A stretch of 64,000 nt of DNA from Terriglobia bacterium. GTDB taxonomy: Bacteria > Acidobacteriota > Terriglobia > Bryobacterales > Bryobacteraceae. A model generated the notes under the pieces. That model was not told the DNA's origin. It saw only the letters and a program-made list of their open reading frames with translations, and made no database searches. Location: positions 1 through 64,000 of the forward strand of contig JANXYJ010000172.1 in the NCBI GenBank assembly GCA_025350105.1. The letters are read 5' to 3'. Shown piece after piece: positions 39,551 through 51,438 of the stretch (position 1 is its first letter; every line of letters starts with the position of its first letter). The position numbers were made by a program, and so were the translations under genes.

Positions 39551-40237
39551 CTAATCGCCGCCATTCCAAATCAACACTTCCACCGGCGTAGGGTTATAAG
39601 CATTGCACGGATTATTCAACTGCGGACAATTGCTGATCACCGTCAGCACATCCACTTCTGCGCGCAATTCCACGTATTTGCCGGGCGCGGACACGCCGTC
39701 TTCAAACGTCAGCTTGCCCTCCGGCGTCACCGGAACATTCATAAAGAAATTGATGTTGGCCGTAAGATCGCGTTTACCGAATTCCCGGCCGGTGGCGTGG
39801 CTCCATACGGTGGCCGCACGAACAAAGCTTTGCCGGCACGCATGCATGAAGCGCTTTTCCATTCCGTAGCGGACCATATTGCTTTCGCAGGAACAGGCGC
39901 CGCCCAAGGTGTCGTGACGGCCGCAGGTATCGGCAACGATCGTCAAAAGCACGTCGCCCGCGGTGGACAACAAGCGCGTTCCCGTAGTCAGATAAATGTT
40001 GTTCTGTTCGCGAATGGTATCTTGCGCACTGTAGCGGTCCGCATAGTTGCGCGCGTTGTAGAACAGCGTATCTACAGCCTGGTTCCCTTTCAGATCCACA
40101 ATGCGCAGAATCTGTCCTCGCTTCACTTCGTGGACCCAGGCATCGCCCGCCGGAATAACCTTGCGATAGTTCGCATTAGTGGGATTCAGAGCGCTCACGG
40201 TAATTTGCCCGTGACCTATAAGTTGGCCTGTACTCAT
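39551..40237 (-). CDS. DUF1989 protein (urea-carboxylase-associated; carboxyguanidine deiminase subunit)
   Basis: A 228-residue DUF1989 protein, one of the pair long called urea carboxylase-associated proteins 1 and 2 and later shown in other bacteria to be carboxyguanidine deiminase (CgdA/CgdB). Visible blocks are [24 protein letters not shown], a cluster with Cys/His residues in [18 protein letters not shown], then [21 protein letters not shown] and [26 protein letters not shown]. The Cys/His pattern suggests a zinc or thiol site. It overlaps the upstream DUF1989 gene by four bases and precedes uca by three. Which of A or B it is cannot be fixed from sequence alone. Confidence 0.9.
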
Positions 40238-40950
40238 GCGAAGTATCGCTCCGTCAGCGTGAAGCCACGCATGTTTTCTGGACGCGAAATACGGCAGCAG
40301 TCATCGGCCAATACGGGGGCCCCTCTTCGAACCGATAGCCGCACCGGCTTAGGGCTGTATCGCGGGTTGGGATCTAGCGGATGCGGACAGGTGTTCAAGA
40401 TCGCCAGCACATTCATTTCCGCACGCAACTCCACCGTACTGCGCGGCAGGGAATTGCGTTCGTGGAAACCCATCGCCCCGTTTGGGTCCACATTCACACG
40501 GCTGAAAAAATTCACATTCGGCACCAGATCACGAGTTCCCAGCCCCCACTTTTCCAGCTCGATCAAAAAAGAATCAAGCCCGTTCTTATGAAACAGGTTG
40601 CGCTGCTCCTGATAGGTGGACTCGCCATACTTCGCCGCCACCAGGCTGGCGCTGGAGCAACCGCCCAGCGGATCATGCCAGCCCACCGAATCGTCCGTGA
40701 TAGAGCACAAGATTCGCCCCATATCGGAATACAGCACGCATCCCTTGGTGAGCCGGCCAACGTGCTGCGCCTTTAACGTATCCGGCAGATTCAGCCGTTC
40801 CACTGGACATTCAAAGTTGTAAAAAAGAACCCCGACATTGGATCCACCTTCAATGTCGGTAAGGCGCAGCGCCGTACCGCGCTTCAAAACGTGAGACCAA
40901 GCCGCACCCGGCTCGACGGTCTCCTCCCACAAAATTTGAGATTCAGTCAT
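40234..40950 (-). CDS. DUF1989 protein (partner of the preceding gene product)
   Basis: First gene of the carboxylase operon: 238 residues, the second DUF1989 paralog. It shares the same blocks: [64 protein letters not shown], and [22 protein letters not shown]. The Cys/His positions of its partner are partly replaced here (SVGWHD for TCGRHD), as expected for a heterodimer with one lead active site. The ATG at 40950 is preceded by GGGGAGGG at six bases. The operon continues through the second DUF1989 gene, uca and atzF. Confidence 0.9.
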
Positions 40951-43045: not shown

Positions 43046-43270
43046 GACAAAACTCTCCTGTTATTTCACGCAAGCGCGGAAGGCTTCCCCGGTCACAACC
43101 GGCCCGCGCTTCCTTAAAAAGCGCGAAGAACTAGCTTTCCGAAAACCGTTCAGTCAAAACCAGCTTCGTGAGAAATGATACAGTTAGCCCCGAGGGTGAG
43201 TCAAGTCGCGAGCCGGCCGTGTGTCGCCAACAGCCGCGCGCTCAACACTTTCGACAAAGAACCCAGACGA

Positions 43271-43320
43271 GTCAGGTTAGGTTAGGCAGGTCAGGTCAGG
43301 TCAGGTCAGGTCAGGTCAGT
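43271..43320. repeat. 5-bp tandem tract (AGGTC) next to the zinc-finger gene end
   Basis: About ten units of a pentamer, AGGTT in the first part and AGGTC in the second, end 11 bases before the stop of the minus-strand zinc-finger gene. Confidence 0.9.
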
Positions 43321-43331
43321 CAAGCTTGAGC

Positions 43332-44168
43332 TTAGTCCAGCTGAAGCGCAAATTCCCGGACCAGCTCACCATTGCCCGAATACAGCCGCACCCAGTAGCC
43401 GCCTGCCTGCAGAACCGAATGCAGATGCGCTGATAAATATTTTGCTTCTACCTGCAGCTTGCCGGACCAAACTTCGCCGCCGGACGCGTCAACCAGCTGG
43501 ATCCTTGGTTCACCCAAGTCCCCTAACGTGGTTCGGTCCACCCTGAGCTCGAGTGGTTTGCCAGCGCGGCCACGATTGCGACCCGTCGTTTCTTTAGCCG
43601 TCGTTTCTTTAGCGGTAGTTTCTTTAGCCATCGTTTCTTTAGCGGTGGTTTCTTTAGCGGTAGTTCCTTTAGCCATCGTTTCGATGGCCGGCGCCTTGTC
43701 GCCGATCGAGACCGGATCCGCTTCGACACCACCCCGTAGGGCCCTCAGTTCAACTACAACCGGCGATACCGACGCCATTTGTAGCTGCCGGGAAGGCAAT
43801 GCTTGCCAGCCCCATATCCCAGCGAGCAGCAACCCAGCGGCCACTATCCCCATGCCAATCAAGCGGGGATATAGTGGACGGATCGGCAAATCCAGCCAGG
43901 GCTGCACTACCGCTCTGGCCTTAACTTTGGAGCCCCGTTTTGATGGACTAGTCTTACTCGGCATTCCGTCCGCAAGCACACCGGACCCCAATGCCGACTT
44001 CAGTTGCGCAATATAGGCGTCCAAACCCGCCACTTCCGTCTGGCAGGCCTCGCAGACTAGCAGGTGTTCTTCTAATACAGATAGAGCGGGCTCGGGGACC
44101 CTCCGAAAACAATACTCCTCCAGCAACTCCTCCGTGGGATGCACGAAGTCCAGCGACATTACTTCCAT
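43332..44168 (-). CDS. Membrane zinc-finger anti-sigma-like protein with a pentapeptide repeat tract
   Basis: About 278 residues from ATG 44168; an earlier in-frame ATG at 44204 and a later one at 44159 are possible. Residues 1-60 hold an anti-sigma zinc-finger pattern: EYCFRR, then LEEHLLVCEACQTE (His-x3-Cys-x2-Cys). A membrane helix lies at about 103-122 (LIGMGIVAAGLLLAGIWGW). Outside it are seven 5-residue repeats (MAKGT, TAKET, TAKET, MAKET and so on) and a beta-rich C-terminal domain (LELRVDRTTLGDL, then LHSVLQAGGYWVRLYSG). This is the layout of a membrane anti-sigma factor with an extracytoplasmic sensor. It lies 92 bases after the sigma gene. Confidence 0.8.
   Translation of the reverse strand: MEVMSLDFVHPTEELLEEYCFRRVPEPALSVLEEHLLVCEACQTEVAGLDAYIAQLKSALGSGVLADGMPSKTSPSKRGSKVKARAVVQPWLDLPIRPLYPRLIGMGIVAAGLLLAGIWGWQALPSRQLQMASVSPVVVELRALRGGVEADPVSIGDKAPAIETMAKGTTAKETTAKETMAKETTAKETTAKETTGRNRGRAGKPLELRVDRTTLGDLGEPRIQLVDASGGEVWSGKLQVEAKYLSAHLHSVLQAGGYWVRLYSGNGELVREFALQLD
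43583..43687. repeat. Seven 15-bp tandem units (TTAKE-type) in the zinc-finger gene
   Basis: A run of 15-base units with core TTTCTTTAGC, in frame, encoding alternating MAKET and TAKET pentapeptides. It ends at a GRNRG sequence. Confidence 0.9.
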
Positions 44169-44260
44169 CCTGCCCTCTATCCTCCGCCGCCACAATGGCG
44201 GCATCGTAGTACCAATTCGAAACGCGTTCCGATGCGGTACGCTTTTCGACTACTGGTTCG

Positions 44261-45214
44261 TTAGTGGGACAGACTGGCAGAAGTTCTCAAAAAAACCGCT
44301 TGTAGGTCCCCGTGAGCCAGTTTTTTCTTACCCAATTCCCCGAAACGGCTCTTAGCACGGGACTTAAGCAAACGAAATTGGGTCGGAGACAGTCCCATTT
44401 CGGTACAGATCTGCTCCTGGGTCTGTTCCTGCAGATAGAACCGTGTCAGTATTTCTCTGTCACGCACAGGTAATTCCTCAAGAACCCGCTCGATCAGGGC
44501 CGTCCTTTGCCGGAAGATTGCCTCTTCTTCGGGATTTCCCCGGGGATCAGCAACCTTGGTGGTGGTGTCCATGTCCATCTGTTCGCGGCGCGAATGGACC
44601 ACTCTGTCGATGTGTGCCGCCACTTGCCGCCGGACGATCGTTCGCACAAAACCCATCAGCCGTTCCGGTTCGCGTAACTCTCCCCGCCGGATCGCCTGCA
44701 CCACCACAACAAAGGTGTCGTGCACTTTGTCGTCCAGTTCCTGGGCACCCAGCTGGCGGCAAAGGTAGAAGCGGATTCCCTTCGAAAACAACTGGTACAG
44801 TTCCGACATTCCGTCGGTTTGGCCCGCGCGAATCCGCTCCACCAATTCTACCCAGGCGGCATAATTCTCCTGGCCAATACCAGCCGAAGTGCTCGGCCCT
44901 ATGGGCGAGTTGGAGGCATCCGGGGAACCCTCAGTAGCACTCTGCATCGAACCCGCAACTTTCAGGTCTGCCCCGCCCTGCAGCCCCGCTTCTAGTCCGT
45001 CCGCCAGCCGTCCCAACCCACCGCTGCGGTGCTCCTCGGCCTGGGCCGGGCTGGCGGCGCTTATCAAGGCAAGATTTGCCACCGTATTCGAGCCCATGTC
45101 ATGGGCTGTTTCCGGCCTGATGAATTCCGATACCATATTCTCCGATCCTCCGATTTCCCCTGCCCCTGCATCGCCCGGTAATCCGGGTTTAGAAACGATT
45201 GTCTTGGGTGTCAT
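44261..45214 (-). CDS. ECF-type sigma factor with a long N-terminal extension
   Basis: A 317-residue RNA polymerase sigma-70-family protein of the extracytoplasmic group. Region 2 (DGMSELYQLFSKGIRFYLC, then LDDKVHDTFVVVVQAI) starts near residue 117. Region 4 is VLEELPVRDREILTRFYLQ then QEQICTEMGLSPTQFRLLKSRA. The first about 115 residues (Gly/Ala/Ser-rich, NTVANLALISAA, LADGLEAGLQGG) are unusual for ECF sigmas. The ATG at 45214 overlaps the stop of the CHAT gene by four bases and is preceded by a GGGGG tract. An earlier start (45268) would overlap more. Confidence 0.88.
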   Translation of the reverse strand: MTPKTIVSKPGLPGDAGAGEIGGSENMVSEFIRPETAHDMGSNTVANLALISAASPAQAEEHRSGGLGRLADGLEAGLQGGADLKVAGSMQSATEGSPDASNSPIGPSTSAGIGQENYAAWVELVERIRAGQTDGMSELYQLFSKGIRFYLCRQLGAQELDDKVHDTFVVVVQAIRRGELREPERLMGFVRTIVRRQVAAHIDRVVHSRREQMDMDTTTKVADPRGNPEEEAIFRQRTALIERVLEELPVRDREILTRFYLQEQTQEQICTEMGLSPTQFRLLKSRAKSRFGELGKKKLAHGDLQAVFLRTSASLSH

Positions 45215-47751
45215 CGCGCCCCCCCGGTCAATTGATAAGAAGCCCAAATTGCCGGCGCGGACCGCCATGTCCCCTCCTGCGCCAATTCAATTTGTGTCTG
45301 CCGCAACGCCTCCGCCGGGGAACTGGTTCTCAGCCGGCGATAGAAGCCGGAAAATATTTCTCCCGAGGTATCCTCAACTGGCCACGCCGTTGCCACAACA
45401 CCGCTGGCCCCAGCCATCAGCCAGGCACGAGTCAGACCAAGCAGGCCGGCGCCAGCACTCACCTGCCCGGTGGCCGTCGCGCAACCGCTCATCACCACCA
45501 GCGAATGTGGAACGCGAAGCATCGCGATTTCTGGCGCAGCCAGAAACTGAGAACCTGGCTTTTCGCCCATACTAAAGGCAACCCTTCCCTGTTCCCGGTC
45601 GGCCGGAGGAATGATGGCGTGGGTGGCCAAGTGGATGATCTTAGGACCGCCCCCAAGCAGTTTTAAAAACTGGTCCCGTTCGGCATGGACGCCGGTCAAT
45701 ACCGTCGCTGTTCCATTGTCTTCGCCCCACGCCGACGCGCTGTTCTCAACCTCCCTGCCGCTACCCACCAGCCGTTCCATCTGCTCATTCTGCGGCAAGT
45801 CCTCGCCGAATTCTGAACCGGCCGTTGAGGTTTCGCCGAACGCTGATTTCAGGACAGAAGGCCAGAAAGTCGCCCGGAACATCTCTTGCGGTGCCGCATG
45901 CCATCGAGGGTCAGCCCGGTTGTAGACCGGATCCCCCACGCCCAGAAACCAGCCCTGAGCAAACACCGCGGTCGCCGGGTTCCCAGCTTTCCCCTGTGCT
46001 TGCAGGACCAGCGCCCCGGGGACGATTTGTAAGGAATGTTGTTCGACTAGATACACAATTTTGCCGCCCTGCTGCTCCGTCACCAGTGCCGCGAATGGAA
46101 CATCAAACAGCGGGCCGTCTAACGACAAAAGCCACGCAGTTTTGCTCTTTTCCTCAAACCCCAGCTGTCCAAACAACCGCTGGTACAATTGCCCTCCGGT
46201 CCGAACCGCCTCTGCAAGGCCGCGCTCGGAACCGCTTGACTGAAGCGCCTGACGATAAGACTGCACATCTTTCGCCAAATTCCCCGCCAAGTCCCCCAGA
46301 CGAAACATGCGTAACGAGGTCCGGGTAACAGCCCAAAGATACGATTCGCCCTTTCCCAAAAAAAAGCTGAGAAATAATTCCGAATCGCTTAACCCATCTT
46401 GAAAATGTATAAGTGAAGCCCGGGTGGCAAAAATCTCGTCTTTCTTCGCCGTAAATCCGAATCCTGCCCTGCCTTCCATTTCGGTAATTTCCAAACGGAC
46501 ACGATTGAGGCGCGCCTGCTGTTGTGGGCGAATTCGGGAAAGTCTCTCCATTTCTGCGGCTTGCCCTAATAATTCCCAGTATTTCGGTGGCAATTTTTCG
46601 CGCCATACGGGTGCCAGCGCCAAGCTCTGCCGGAGATTTGCAGCACGATTCAGCTCAACTGCCTGGAACGCCCGGGCCGCCAGCTCCGGATTTTTCCTAT
46701 TCAGTTTGTGCTCTGCCACAAAGTGACCGGCTGCTTCGACGAAGGAATCGAAAATCTGATTCTCCAGGGCGATGTTGGTCGCGGTAAGTGAAGATCGAGC
46801 TGCGGGCACCTCCGCACGCCAGGCGGTAGCGGCCTCCAGCGCTGCGGAAAGGTCCTCCAGCGCCCCCTCCGTCTGGCCCAATTCCAGACGAATTCGTCCT
46901 CGCTGCGCCAGCAGTACATGGAGTGGCCAAGTGGCGGTGTTGCGTGCCAAGGCCCGATCGGTGAACCGCATCGCCGTTCGCAAATCGCCTTGAGCCAGCT
47001 TCAAGGCCCCCAGGCGAGCATAGGAAAGCGGCAGTTCATCGTGAAGCTTTTTTGGCGAGATCGTTCGCAAACGGTACGCCTGCCCAAGGGCTTGTTCAGC
47101 GCGATCCCAATGCCGCTGAAACATGCGCTGCTCAGCCAATAGATCCCAGCCAATCGCTTCCACTGAATCCATTCCCTCAGCCCGTGCTGCTTCAATCCCG
47201 CCCAGAAAAAAAGGTTCGGCGTCGCCATCCTTTAAGAAGGAATGAAGGCGGCCAATCTGCAGCAACAAGGGCGCGCGGTGGTTGTTGCTCCGGGCTCGAT
47301 TTAGGGCAGCGATGCCGTCCTGAGCAGCGTGAACCGCCGACGGTAAATCCCATACTTGAAGATAAATACTGGAAAGATTGAACGCGATCACGCCCGCGTC
47401 CTCGCTATCGCCGGCCGATTCCGCCAGATCGCGGGTTCGTAAAAAGGTAGCCAGCGCCTGCGCGTAGTGATAGTCAAGAAACTGACAAGCACCTGCACTC
47501 ATCAGATAACGAACCGCGGACACATCTTGCCGCTGAGCCATTGCGGAGTCATAGCCCTGCAGATAGAGCAGCTCCGCTGCCTGGTTAGCACCGGCCTTGC
47601 GAAAAGCCAGCGCACGTTTTCCGATGTTCAGTGGATCCCGATCCCAGAACAAGCTGGAACCAGGCGATTCCGACCGGATGACAAGCGCAGAACGCGAACC
47701 CGTCATCCACAGTGAGAGGATCAGGAAAAGGCTACAGATAATTCCAGCCAT
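45211..47751 (-). CDS. TPR-CHAT protease-like protein
   Basis: An 846-residue protein. An N-terminal hydrophobic segment (IICSLFLILSLWMTG, about 4-18) acts as signal or anchor. Many tetratricopeptide-like helical repeats follow (about 60-420), e.g. ATFLRTRDLAESAGDSEDAG, then a linker and a C-terminal CHAT domain (about 540-846). The CHAT catalytic dyad is intact: His711 in IIHLATHAIIPP and Cys757 in LVVMSGCATATG, followed by GLTRAWLMAGASGVVATAWP. CHAT peptidases are caspase/separase relatives. The gene heads an operon with the ECF sigma and zinc-finger genes. If exported, its protease side would face the same compartment as the zinc-finger protein's sensor part. Confidence 0.88.
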   Translation of the reverse strand: MAGIICSLFLILSLWMTGSRSALVIRSESPGSSLFWDRDPLNIGKRALAFRKAGANQAAELLYLQGYDSAMAQRQDVSAVRYLMSAGACQFLDYHYAQALATFLRTRDLAESAGDSEDAGVIAFNLSSIYLQVWDLPSAVHAAQDGIAALNRARSNNHRAPLLLQIGRLHSFLKDGDAEPFFLGGIEAARAEGMDSVEAIGWDLLAEQRMFQRHWDRAEQALGQAYRLRTISPKKLHDELPLSYARLGALKLAQGDLRTAMRFTDRALARNTATWPLHVLLAQRGRIRLELGQTEGALEDLSAALEAATAWRAEVPAARSSLTATNIALENQIFDSFVEAAGHFVAEHKLNRKNPELAARAFQAVELNRAANLRQSLALAPVWREKLPPKYWELLGQAAEMERLSRIRPQQQARLNRVRLEITEMEGRAGFGFTAKKDEIFATRASLIHFQDGLSDSELFLSFFLGKGESYLWAVTRTSLRMFRLGDLAGNLAKDVQSYRQALQSSGSERGLAEAVRTGGQLYQRLFGQLGFEEKSKTAWLLSLDGPLFDVPFAALVTEQQGGKIVYLVEQHSLQIVPGALVLQAQGKAGNPATAVFAQGWFLGVGDPVYNRADPRWHAAPQEMFRATFWPSVLKSAFGETSTAGSEFGEDLPQNEQMERLVGSGREVENSASAWGEDNGTATVLTGVHAERDQFLKLLGGGPKIIHLATHAIIPPADREQGRVAFSMGEKPGSQFLAAPEIAMLRVPHSLVVMSGCATATGQVSAGAGLLGLTRAWLMAGASGVVATAWPVEDTSGEIFSGFYRRLRTSSPAEALRQTQIELAQEGTWRSAPAIWASYQLTGGAR

Positions 47752-48117
47752 TTTCCAAACAATCCCTTACGATTATGTCTGGAATCATACCACAATTATT
47801 ATGAGGCACCAGCTTACGCCGGTGCCCGCATTGCAGAGCCGCCAGGAATTCGCGGCCGCGCCGCTAACTTTAGCGGCATCGATGCTCCGCAACTAGTCGT
47901 CCCCAACTAGTCACCCCCCCACTAGTTACCCCAGGGAGAAGTAGGAAAAATCACGATAGGTTCGCCCATTTTGTCGTTACCCCTTTCTGTCCGATTGATC
48001 GGTGCCAATCAGTCTCGTTGAAACCTGCCGGAAGTATCCGGCTGATCAAACAGTAAGCAGCAATCGCAGCACCAGCCGGGCCTGAAATGCGTAACCGCCA
48101 CTGCGCACGGGAGTTGT
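47752..48117. other. Intergenic gap with a 14-15-bp tandem repeat
   Basis: About 366 bases between the CHAT gene start and the permease end. Three CAACTAGTC-type units lie at 47890-47903, 47904-47917 and about 47918-47932. CCGGCTG and CAGCCGG arms about 28 bases apart near 48032-48075 could be a weak hairpin. Nothing else is evident. Confidence 0.55.
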
Positions 48118-50709: not shown

Positions 50710-51438
50710 TCAGGAAGCGCTGGCCACAATAATCGGCGTTGATGTGGGTGCGGCGGAACCGGCTTCGGGTTCCAGCGTCACGGCAATGGTGCCTAGCGCG
50801 GCCATGTCGATGGGGCCGCTGAGAATATGCAGGCCGCGCCTACCGTCGGATTGGAACAGGCCCGCAGGACGGGGTGTGCCGCCTTTGGGAATCACCCACA
50901 TCTCGTAGGCTTTGCCCGCCCCAGCCGCAGGAAGGTTGGAGGCGATCAGCAGCACTCCCATTTGCGGATGCAGGAAGACGTAGCCGCGCGGAGGAGCGTT
51001 GGTACCTCTGCCGAAACTGGCCGGTTGCGTTTGCGGATCGGACAAAAACTGCAGCGCCTGATTCAAACGGTCACGCTGGCCCTGGGTGTTCATCAGTTGA
51101 TTGCGCGCGTCCGCCAGTTCATTGGTGCGGGTGCGTTCCTGCAAACCCAACCAAAGCGACAGGATCAGCAAGCCCGCGGCCGAAAGGGCCCACACCCAGC
51201 CCCAGCCGGGCTTTTCTACACCAATCGAAGCCAGCACTCGCCGTTTCAGTCGCGACGGCGGCGATTCGATTTCGACCAGATTCAGAATACCCACGTTCAG
51301 TGCCGTCGCATCGGCCAAGCCCAGGCGGCAGGTTTCGCAACCGCGGGCGATATGCGCTTCCATCTCGATTTTCTCATCGTCTTCGGCCACTCCGAGCGCA
51401 TAGAGCTCGTAAATGTCGCTGAGTTCGGCGCACGTCAT
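50710..51438 (-). CDS. RskA-type anti-sigma factor
   Basis: A 242-residue anti-sigma-K-like membrane protein. The N-terminal domain has ELSDIYELYALGVAEDDEK and HIARGCETCRLGLADATAL, resembling the SigK-inhibitor helix bundle. A membrane helix lies at about 82-99 (WVWALSAAGLLILSLWLGL). The RskA C-terminal domain has GYVFLHPQMGVLLIASNLPA, AYEMWVIPKGGTPRPAGLFQ and GTIAVTLEPEAGSAAPTS. It follows the sigma gene at 51488 by 49 bases and probably holds that sigma at the membrane until regulated proteolysis releases it (known for the family, inferred here). Confidence 0.9.
   Translation of the reverse strand: MTCAELSDIYELYALGVAEDDEKIEMEAHIARGCETCRLGLADATALNVGILNLVEIESPPSRLKRRVLASIGVEKPGWGWVWALSAAGLLILSLWLGLQERTRTNELADARNQLMNTQGQRDRLNQALQFLSDPQTQPASFGRGTNAPPRGYVFLHPQMGVLLIASNLPAAGAGKAYEMWVIPKGGTPRPAGLFQSDGRRGLHILSGPIDMAALGTIAVTLEPEAGSAAPTSTPIIVASAS

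Follow-up and report, generated by a model that had tools for sequence, protein, structure and literature searches.

A conserved TPR-CHAT, ECF sigma factor and zinc-finger membrane protein operon in Acidobacteriota, a putative split counterpart of DdvA

We analysed a 64,000-nucleotide stretch of DNA from a Terriglobia bacterium (Acidobacteriota; family Bryobacteraceae; contig JANXYJ010000172.1), referred to below as the window. Three of its minus-strand genes encode a protein combining tetratricopeptide repeats (TPR) with a caspase-like CHAT domain, an extracytoplasmic function (ECF) sigma factor, and a single-pass membrane protein with a zinc finger that is likely an anti-sigma factor. The order of these genes is conserved among related bacteria, and comparison with known systems makes it plausible that the operon spreads over two proteins what DdvA of Myxococcus xanthus joins in one; its CHAT protein might cleave the zinc-finger protein. 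A micro-open reading frame (micro-ORF) of a previously unannotated family often lies upstream of the CHAT gene.

Conservation of the three-gene unit

The TPR-CHAT gene (45211–47751) encodes 846 residues and is followed on the minus strand by the sigma factor gene (44261–45214), whose ATG shares four bases (ATGA) with the CHAT stop codon, and by the zinc-finger gene (43332–44204). We confirmed these open reading frames (ORFs) at the coordinates that a sequence-only reading of the window had given. Its proposal that they form one unit agrees with this overlap and with the linkage retained in relatives.

Of 150 genomes from the window's family, 147 have matches to the CHAT protein, the weaker ones likely being mere CHAT-domain relatives. 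The neighbourhood was compared in the best 80 of 168 confirmed loci, picked by CHAT patterns alone; these do not amount to 80 species, as some share a genome, and some of the contigs also contributed to the sigma and zinc-finger profiles. A sigma gene lies 3' of the CHAT gene in 76/80 loci, or 76/77 where more than one base remains downstream; the other four are three loci that stop at a contig edge, plus L072. With CHAT identities of 29–52% among loci, we judge an ECF sigma gene after CHAT in 76 of 77 to be far beyond chance. The zinc-finger gene follows CHAT and sigma in 69/80 loci, or in 69 of 71 when only loci with 1.5 kb or more of downstream sequence are counted. Nine of the eleven loci lacking it end within 1 kb, and two have room and no match: L072, with neither a sigma nor a zinc-finger match in 5.8 kb, and L079, with a sigma gene and no zinc-finger match in 2.7 kb. 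Of 29 family loci with flanks of 1.5 kb, some of them truncated, 27 matched sigma and 23 the zinc-finger protein when the window proteins alone served as queries. No other cluster of neighbours (ORFs of at least 110 residues, E ≤ 1e-10) occurred in more than 13/80 loci. The synteny that the sequence-only reading had suggested looking for is thus present, and loss of linkage was not seen.

In other Acidobacteriota families, CHAT genes occur repeatedly, though not always, with sigma and zinc-finger genes. We compared 40 regions, namely 35 of the 36 best-scoring CHAT matches (one was skipped; L154 and L174–L207) and five regions chosen because a zinc-finger gene had already been seen nearby (L208–L212). 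Among the 35, the CHAT-sigma-zinc finger order is found in L180 (with a weak sigma match), L181, L187, L189 and L197, and a sigma-like ORF sits between the CHAT and zinc-finger genes in L183, L194 and L198. The genes are arranged otherwise in L175, L179 and L206, five loci have a sigma-like gene near CHAT and no zinc-finger match (L188, L191, L193, L200 and L203), and the remaining 19/35 have neither close by. Since the sigma-like proteins of L180, L183, L189, L194 and L198 give sub-threshold Pfam sigma matches at best, these are looser cases. Together, these comparisons suggest an operon conserved among soil bacteria and recurrent in Acidobacteriota.

A family of sigma-like proteins with a cysteine near the C-terminus is encoded after CHAT in L180, L183, L189, L191, L194, L197 and L198; a Pfam scan of all of these except L197 gave two sub-threshold sigma matches and none for the other four. 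The operon also appears in public records titled Bordetella parapertussis (L047, the title probably being a mislabel) and Acidimicrobiia (L095).

Predicted functions and relation to known systems

The CHAT domain spans residues 517–843 (PF12770, E 4.5e-46, 158 bits against a cut-off of 24), and the genome assembly, which is 96% complete, has no other PF12770 match. In an AlphaFold2 model (predicted local distance difference test, pLDDT, 88; predicted template modelling score 0.87), a TPR superhelix precedes the caspase-like domain. The TPR-type helical array (about residues 40–430) is clear in the model, while Pfam TPR models score under cut-off; VIA-align superimposes the model on the LGN TPR chain 3ro2_A with Z 24.1 and a root-mean-square deviation (rmsd) of 6.0 over 304 aligned residues. 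The predicted catalytic residues, His711 (codon 45619–45621, minus strand) and Cys757 (45481–45483, minus strand), are invariant in 74/74 aligned CHAT proteins (the window protein and 73 of the 80 loci, the other seven being partial or masked). The dyad read from the window sequence is therefore intact throughout the alignment, which suggests that catalysis is under selection. The protein may be a caspase-like endopeptidase and is probably exported.

The sigma gene product is assigned by profile matches as an ECF sigma factor with sigma2 and sigma4 regions: it matches TIGR02937 (sigma70-ECF superfamily; E 6.2e-15, spanning residues 138–290) and Sigma70_r4_2 (E 2.5e-9) above their cut-offs, and the Pfam region 2 model under its cut-off (E 0.047). 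Conservation begins at about residue 119; residues 1 to about 118 form a variable extension, and the true start is therefore uncertain.

The zinc-finger protein (motif Hx3Cx2C) probably starts at the ATG at 44168, which is preceded by GGAGG/GAGGG. Its AlphaFold2 model has a mean pLDDT of 74, with blocks of at least 90 covering residues 21–70 and 211–290. The zinc-finger helices lie at residues 25–79, hydropathy and a model helix of moderate confidence at 119–134 indicate one transmembrane segment, and a confidently modelled immunoglobulin (Ig)-like beta-sandwich occupies the C-terminus (about residues 210–289). Between the last two, a linker carries an in-frame AKETT repeat (about 43580–43680). 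The beta domain is the extramembrane part common to 16 aligned relatives, and the AKETT-repeat linker was not found in those 16. Of the 'repeat-bearing sensor' part that the sequence-only reading had proposed, the outer domain thus stands and is kept in relatives; the repeat is not.

Matches to the zinc-finger protein were found in 227/396 genomes outside the family, and all of the best 27 compared as loci (L117–L143) adjoin a sigma-like gene (E ≤ 1e-3), which supports the anti-sigma assignment. Against anti-sigma factors of solved structure, the zinc-finger profile matches ChrR with E 5.9e-5. By these matches and its gene neighbourhood, the protein likely belongs to the sigma-linked, zinc-finger-type class of membrane anti-sigma factors and would bind sigma, as the anti-sigma layout noticed in the window sequence had implied.

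A PDB search with the single CHAT protein sequence returned separase alone, with E 0.67 or worse, and the relation to systems of known structure rests on the structure model and on profiles. The top Foldseek hits of the model are Csx29 (8eex, E 2.1e-13) and DdvA (8rw5, E 2.3e-13; 8rot, E 4.8e-13). VIA-align against Csx29 chains gives Z up to 25.2 (rmsd 9.4, 587 aligned residues); because plain TPR proteins already score up to 24, the Z value by itself cannot tell likeness to Csx29 from likeness to TPR proteins. The CHAT-domain profile places DdvA first (residues 832–978, E 1.5e-9), followed by separase (E 3.3e-6) and Csx29 (E 0.0018), and a His and a Cys matching the CHAT dyad are in place in DdvA.

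DdvA, which acts with the ECF factor DdvS in M. xanthus (PDB 8rot, 8rw5 and 8rlz) and is transmembrane according to the PDB title, is thus matched weakly by the zinc-finger profile at one end and by the CHAT profile at the other, as would be expected of a one-chain counterpart with the two partners naturally fused. The window, like the 69 loci having both parts, encodes each of them by a gene of its own. The zinc-finger protein described here differs further in having an Ig-like outer domain of its own, and its operon in often having a micropeptide gene upstream. DdvS is reported to be active once DdvA is inactivated, the triggering signal being left undefined there (PMC4374960), and to govern an antiphage island that combines two cyclic-oligonucleotide systems with a III-B CRISPR-Cas system (PMC12288465).

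In Craspase, the TPR-CHAT protease Csx29 cleaves Csx30, an inhibitor of the ECF factor CASP-sigma, and thereby relieves the sigma factor (PMC10028731). The layout of TPR-CHAT protease, inhibitor and ECF factor is the same and the fold matches. In contrast, Craspase is RNA-guided through Cas7-11, and the predicted inhibitor described here is a zf-HC2 membrane protein. No additional neighbour recurs in most of the 80 loci (none in more than 13/80, in an analysis that included no search aimed at cas genes such as Cas7-11 and Csx30/Csx31). CalpL/CalpT/CalpS is described as the same relay of protease, anti-sigma factor and ECF sigma factor; its protease is of the Lon type, with a SAVED sensor activated by cyclic tetra-adenylate (cA4) (PMC11417357). 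For ECF54, CHAT genes occur in the genomic context and a proposal of protease control is relayed in a review; this group is said to act without an anti-sigma factor, and its model member is actinobacterial (PMC8999054).

PADLOC returned no match for the three window proteins. RseA/DegS and RsiW-type systems use different first proteases. Their regulated proteolysis, with release of the anti-sigma factor by a protease, is the model borrowed here and is mentioned in the Craspase source (PMC10028731). The sequence-only reading had been aware of no described system of this kind. That claim does not hold in view of DdvA, with both parts on one chain, of Craspase, in which a CHAT protease relieves an ECF sigma factor, and of the ECF54 proposal. 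Within the titles and abstract openings that we covered, subscription papers being mostly outside this coverage, we found no description of the split operon or of the micropeptide.

Topology and proposed mechanism

As the sigma-binding zinc-finger domain must be inside and the protein has one transmembrane segment, its Ig-like domain is expected outside. For the CHAT protein, a strongly hydrophobic N-terminal core is present in 68 of 74 family members (a count that leaves out the window protein and six loci of the 80), with a median net charge of +2 before it. In CHAT proteins of other families (n = 39), the core is present in 26, and the median charges are +2 before and 0 after it, which is the usual export pattern. 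Cysteine content is 0.39 per 100 residues in the CHAT protein versus 1.08 in sigma (65 loci). The signal-like N-termini of relatives point to an extracytoplasmic location of CHAT. Ig-domain divergence follows that of the TPR part (r 0.57) more closely than that of the zinc-finger domain on its own chain (r 0.29); the partial r given sigma is 0.49, a value reached in 0/300 permutations.

The interpretation we favour, whose chances we regard as evenly balanced, is that the operon serves envelope signalling as a divided equivalent of DdvA, with an extracytoplasmic cut of the zinc-finger protein by CHAT. On the cytoplasmic side, the zinc-finger domain of this single-pass protein would hold the ECF sigma factor, and the exported or anchored TPR-CHAT protein would engage the linker or the Ig-like domain of this protein outside the cytoplasm. 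A signal reaching the TPR superhelix would lead the His/Cys dyad to make a first, site-1-type cut, after which general proteases would finish the anti-sigma factor and free sigma. Of this scheme, the conserved genes, the invariant dyad, the arrangement of domains and the kinship with DdvA and Csx29 are shown by computation; the transmembrane segment and CHAT export are predicted, and sigma binding by the zinc-finger domain, the cut, the signal and the later proteolysis are inferred.

Several observations weigh against it. The zf-HC2 match of the window protein (E 0.011) is under cut-off; 54 of the 67 alignment members, window included, match this model at E ≤ 0.1. The zinc-finger match to DdvA (residues 7–88, E 0.006) is weak, so that the two share a class with weak closeness. 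The family CHAT proteins have a median charge of +1.5 after the hydrophobic core, and 6/74 family and 13/39 other CHAT proteins fall under the hydropathy threshold. The window CHAT N-terminus itself (MAGIICSLF..., hydrophobic at residues 2–18) lacks charged residues ahead of the core and carries an Arg behind it; taken alone it would not favour export and may be an inside-facing anchor. The N-terminal signal or anchor and the outside location that the sequence-only reading had assumed thus agree with the export-like segment of relatives and hold as a prediction; a cytoplasmic CHAT domain, one of the outcomes that reading had set against its own scheme, is disfavoured by prediction. Alignment length and common ancestry both confound the Ig/TPR co-divergence, which is no more than suggestive.

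Other interpretations account for parts of these data. The TPR-CHAT protein may act outside the cytoplasm as a sensor or clamp without proteolysis, binding the Ig-like domain of the zinc-finger protein and altering sigma holding conformationally, with the dyad serving another substrate or self-processing. Both parts are on one chain in DdvA, which could work that way in cis, and conservation of the Ig domain and its co-divergence with TPR-CHAT fit this reading; the invariance of His and Cys in all 74 proteins speaks for selected catalysis, and we find the proposal doubtful. CHAT could also be an output gene turned on by the neighbouring sigma factor and not its regulator. CHAT proteins are often effectors, and CHAT and sigma share an operon. 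The retention of the CHAT-sigma-zinc finger order in the family and the joining of CHAT to an anti-sigma factor in DdvA argue otherwise. So does the motif before CHAT, which resembles a housekeeping extended -10 element (TGGTATGATTC; in the window TGGTATGAT, 47784–47792, minus strand, between the micro-ORF and the CHAT gene): its score exceeds 6 in 31/48 loci, window included, and in 20/28 regions where no micro-ORF was found, soft counts made without a shuffle control of their own (motif-fitted shuffles of another set gave 26 and 32 of 49). This output role we judge unlikely.

A cytoplasm-facing CHAT domain might, as in Craspase, cut between the zinc-finger domain and the membrane, so that sigma would be let out in one step. 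The Csx29 precedent and the fold match to Csx29 favour this arrangement, as do the window N-terminus, with no positive residue before the core and an Arg after it, and the positive charge after the core in the family. Against it stand the export-like charge pattern of relatives, the low cysteine content, and the expected outside position of the CHAT end of DdvA, a protein that is transmembrane by its PDB title and that we take to be single-pass. We consider a cytoplasmic cut very unlikely, and retain extracytoplasmic cleavage as the favoured interpretation.

An upstream micropeptide gene family

Upstream of CHAT, the window carries a micro-ORF (47922–47969, minus strand, read from 47969 to 47922) encoding MGEPIVIFPTSPWGN, a feature absent from the sequence-only reading. 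It belongs to a family of unannotated micropeptides of 9–26 residues, M-x-[DE]-P-I-I-I-I... (window and L213–L247), and its place in the system is that of a candidate. A motif search of 76 upstream regions that assumed no coding picked out an element with 3-base periodicity, M..[DE]PIIII in translation, an unbiased sign of coding. ATG micro-ORFs of this kind are present in 51/77 regions upstream of CHAT (four of 81, L045, L056, L100 and L109, were dropped for having less than 150 bases upstream), versus 0/77 on the reverse strand, a mean of 0.92 (maximum 4) over 50 shuffles, and 0/120 control strand-regions. Bryobacterales bacterium F-183 (L093), apparently an isolate, carries the three operon genes as well as the micro-ORF. 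Synonymous versus non-synonymous differences in the core number 1777 to 516, a ratio biased by the choice of cores by their residues. A conserved element lies about 112 nucleotides before the micro-ORF (log-likelihood 310.7 versus 131.8 and 125.5 in two shuffled sets).

A whole-genome pattern gave 32 matches in 24 of 150 family genomes and 0 with the reversed pattern; 30 of these were compared as loci, 19 with CHAT within 1.5 kb downstream and 11 without, including L236, where only 308 bases remain downstream. Another pattern, one that the window copy satisfies, yielded 5 matches in 5/150 genomes (reversed-pattern control, 1), four preceding CHAT and one being a long ORF; a pattern without the window's GTG codon was uninformative, with 1+1 matches against 1+1 in the control. 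In the window's genus, 9/23 genomes have one match each, and 6/9 of these precede CHAT; L248, L253 and L254 have no CHAT downstream in the stretch read, and L248 (30 residues) and L254 (52 residues) may be chance matches. In the window's nearest group (L032–L047), the micro-ORF was found in 4/15 tested loci, and among CHAT loci of other families in 0/36; L037 has a copy 2 kb away. The micro-ORF is patchy near the window and is thus not required everywhere.

Six of the 11 CHAT-free copies (L220, L224, L230, L234, L236 and L242) have TAA[AG]GT-N14-[GC]CCGATC ending 8–11 nucleotides before the ATG, an element that we take to resemble the sigma28/FliA consensus. It precedes 0/23 CHAT-linked copies and 8/2242 ATGs in the same loci, those six included (L243, a long ORF, was dropped). 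The separate copies and the promoter-like elements indicate that the micropeptide is probably encoded by a separate gene. An attenuation leader, translated upstream of the CHAT operon and regulating it through its Ile-rich codons, would fit the upstream position and the Ile run. This function is disfavoured, and we hold it to be highly improbable: 11/30 copies lack CHAT within 1.5 kb (with the 308-base limit of L236), 6/11 of them having the sigma28-like promoter, L077 has two copies, a promoter-like motif separates the micro-ORF from CHAT, and Val, Leu or Phe replace Ile in some copies.

The micropeptide may instead act in trans on the TPR-CHAT protein, as its ligand, pseudo-substrate or inhibitor, yielding a peptide-gated protease that sets the ECF sigma factor; the additional copies behind flagellar, sigma28-like promoters would tie it to motility. 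The core DPIIII resembles, we presume, short hydrophobic pheromones read by TPR receptors. We regard this proposal as speculative and rather unlikely to be correct as a whole.

In L225, L231, L239 and L240, a stretch like GAAATTGAAAGGATCGC...GCGGTCA, hairpin-like by eye, lies upstream of the micro-ORF and could be a cis RNA element; an Rfam scan of 13 micro-ORF loci gave one sub-threshold match and none at this stretch. Elsewhere in the window, a CCTGA/ACCTG tandem pentanucleotide repeat (about 43270–43320) lies immediately 3' of the zinc-finger gene, two adjacent DUF1989 genes (E 1.7e-67 and 5.3e-57) occupy 39551–40950 (minus strand), and a further gene with a predicted anti-sigma product (RskA_C, E 2.4e-21; 50710–51438, minus strand) lies just upstream of an ADOP permease gene, which is itself upstream of the micro-ORF. 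ADOP permease as a general part of the operon was rejected, being found upstream of CHAT in 4/61 other loci, all from the window's nearest group.

A defence regulator of Myxococcus and Craspase both pair CHAT with an anti-sigma factor and an ECF sigma factor, and these results suggest that the pairing recurs as a signalling module in Acidobacteriota, here split. Its division between two proteins makes the protease question, awkward in the fused DdvA, directly testable. The micropeptide is the most novel lead and would represent a new kind of input, should TPR-CHAT prove to be its target.

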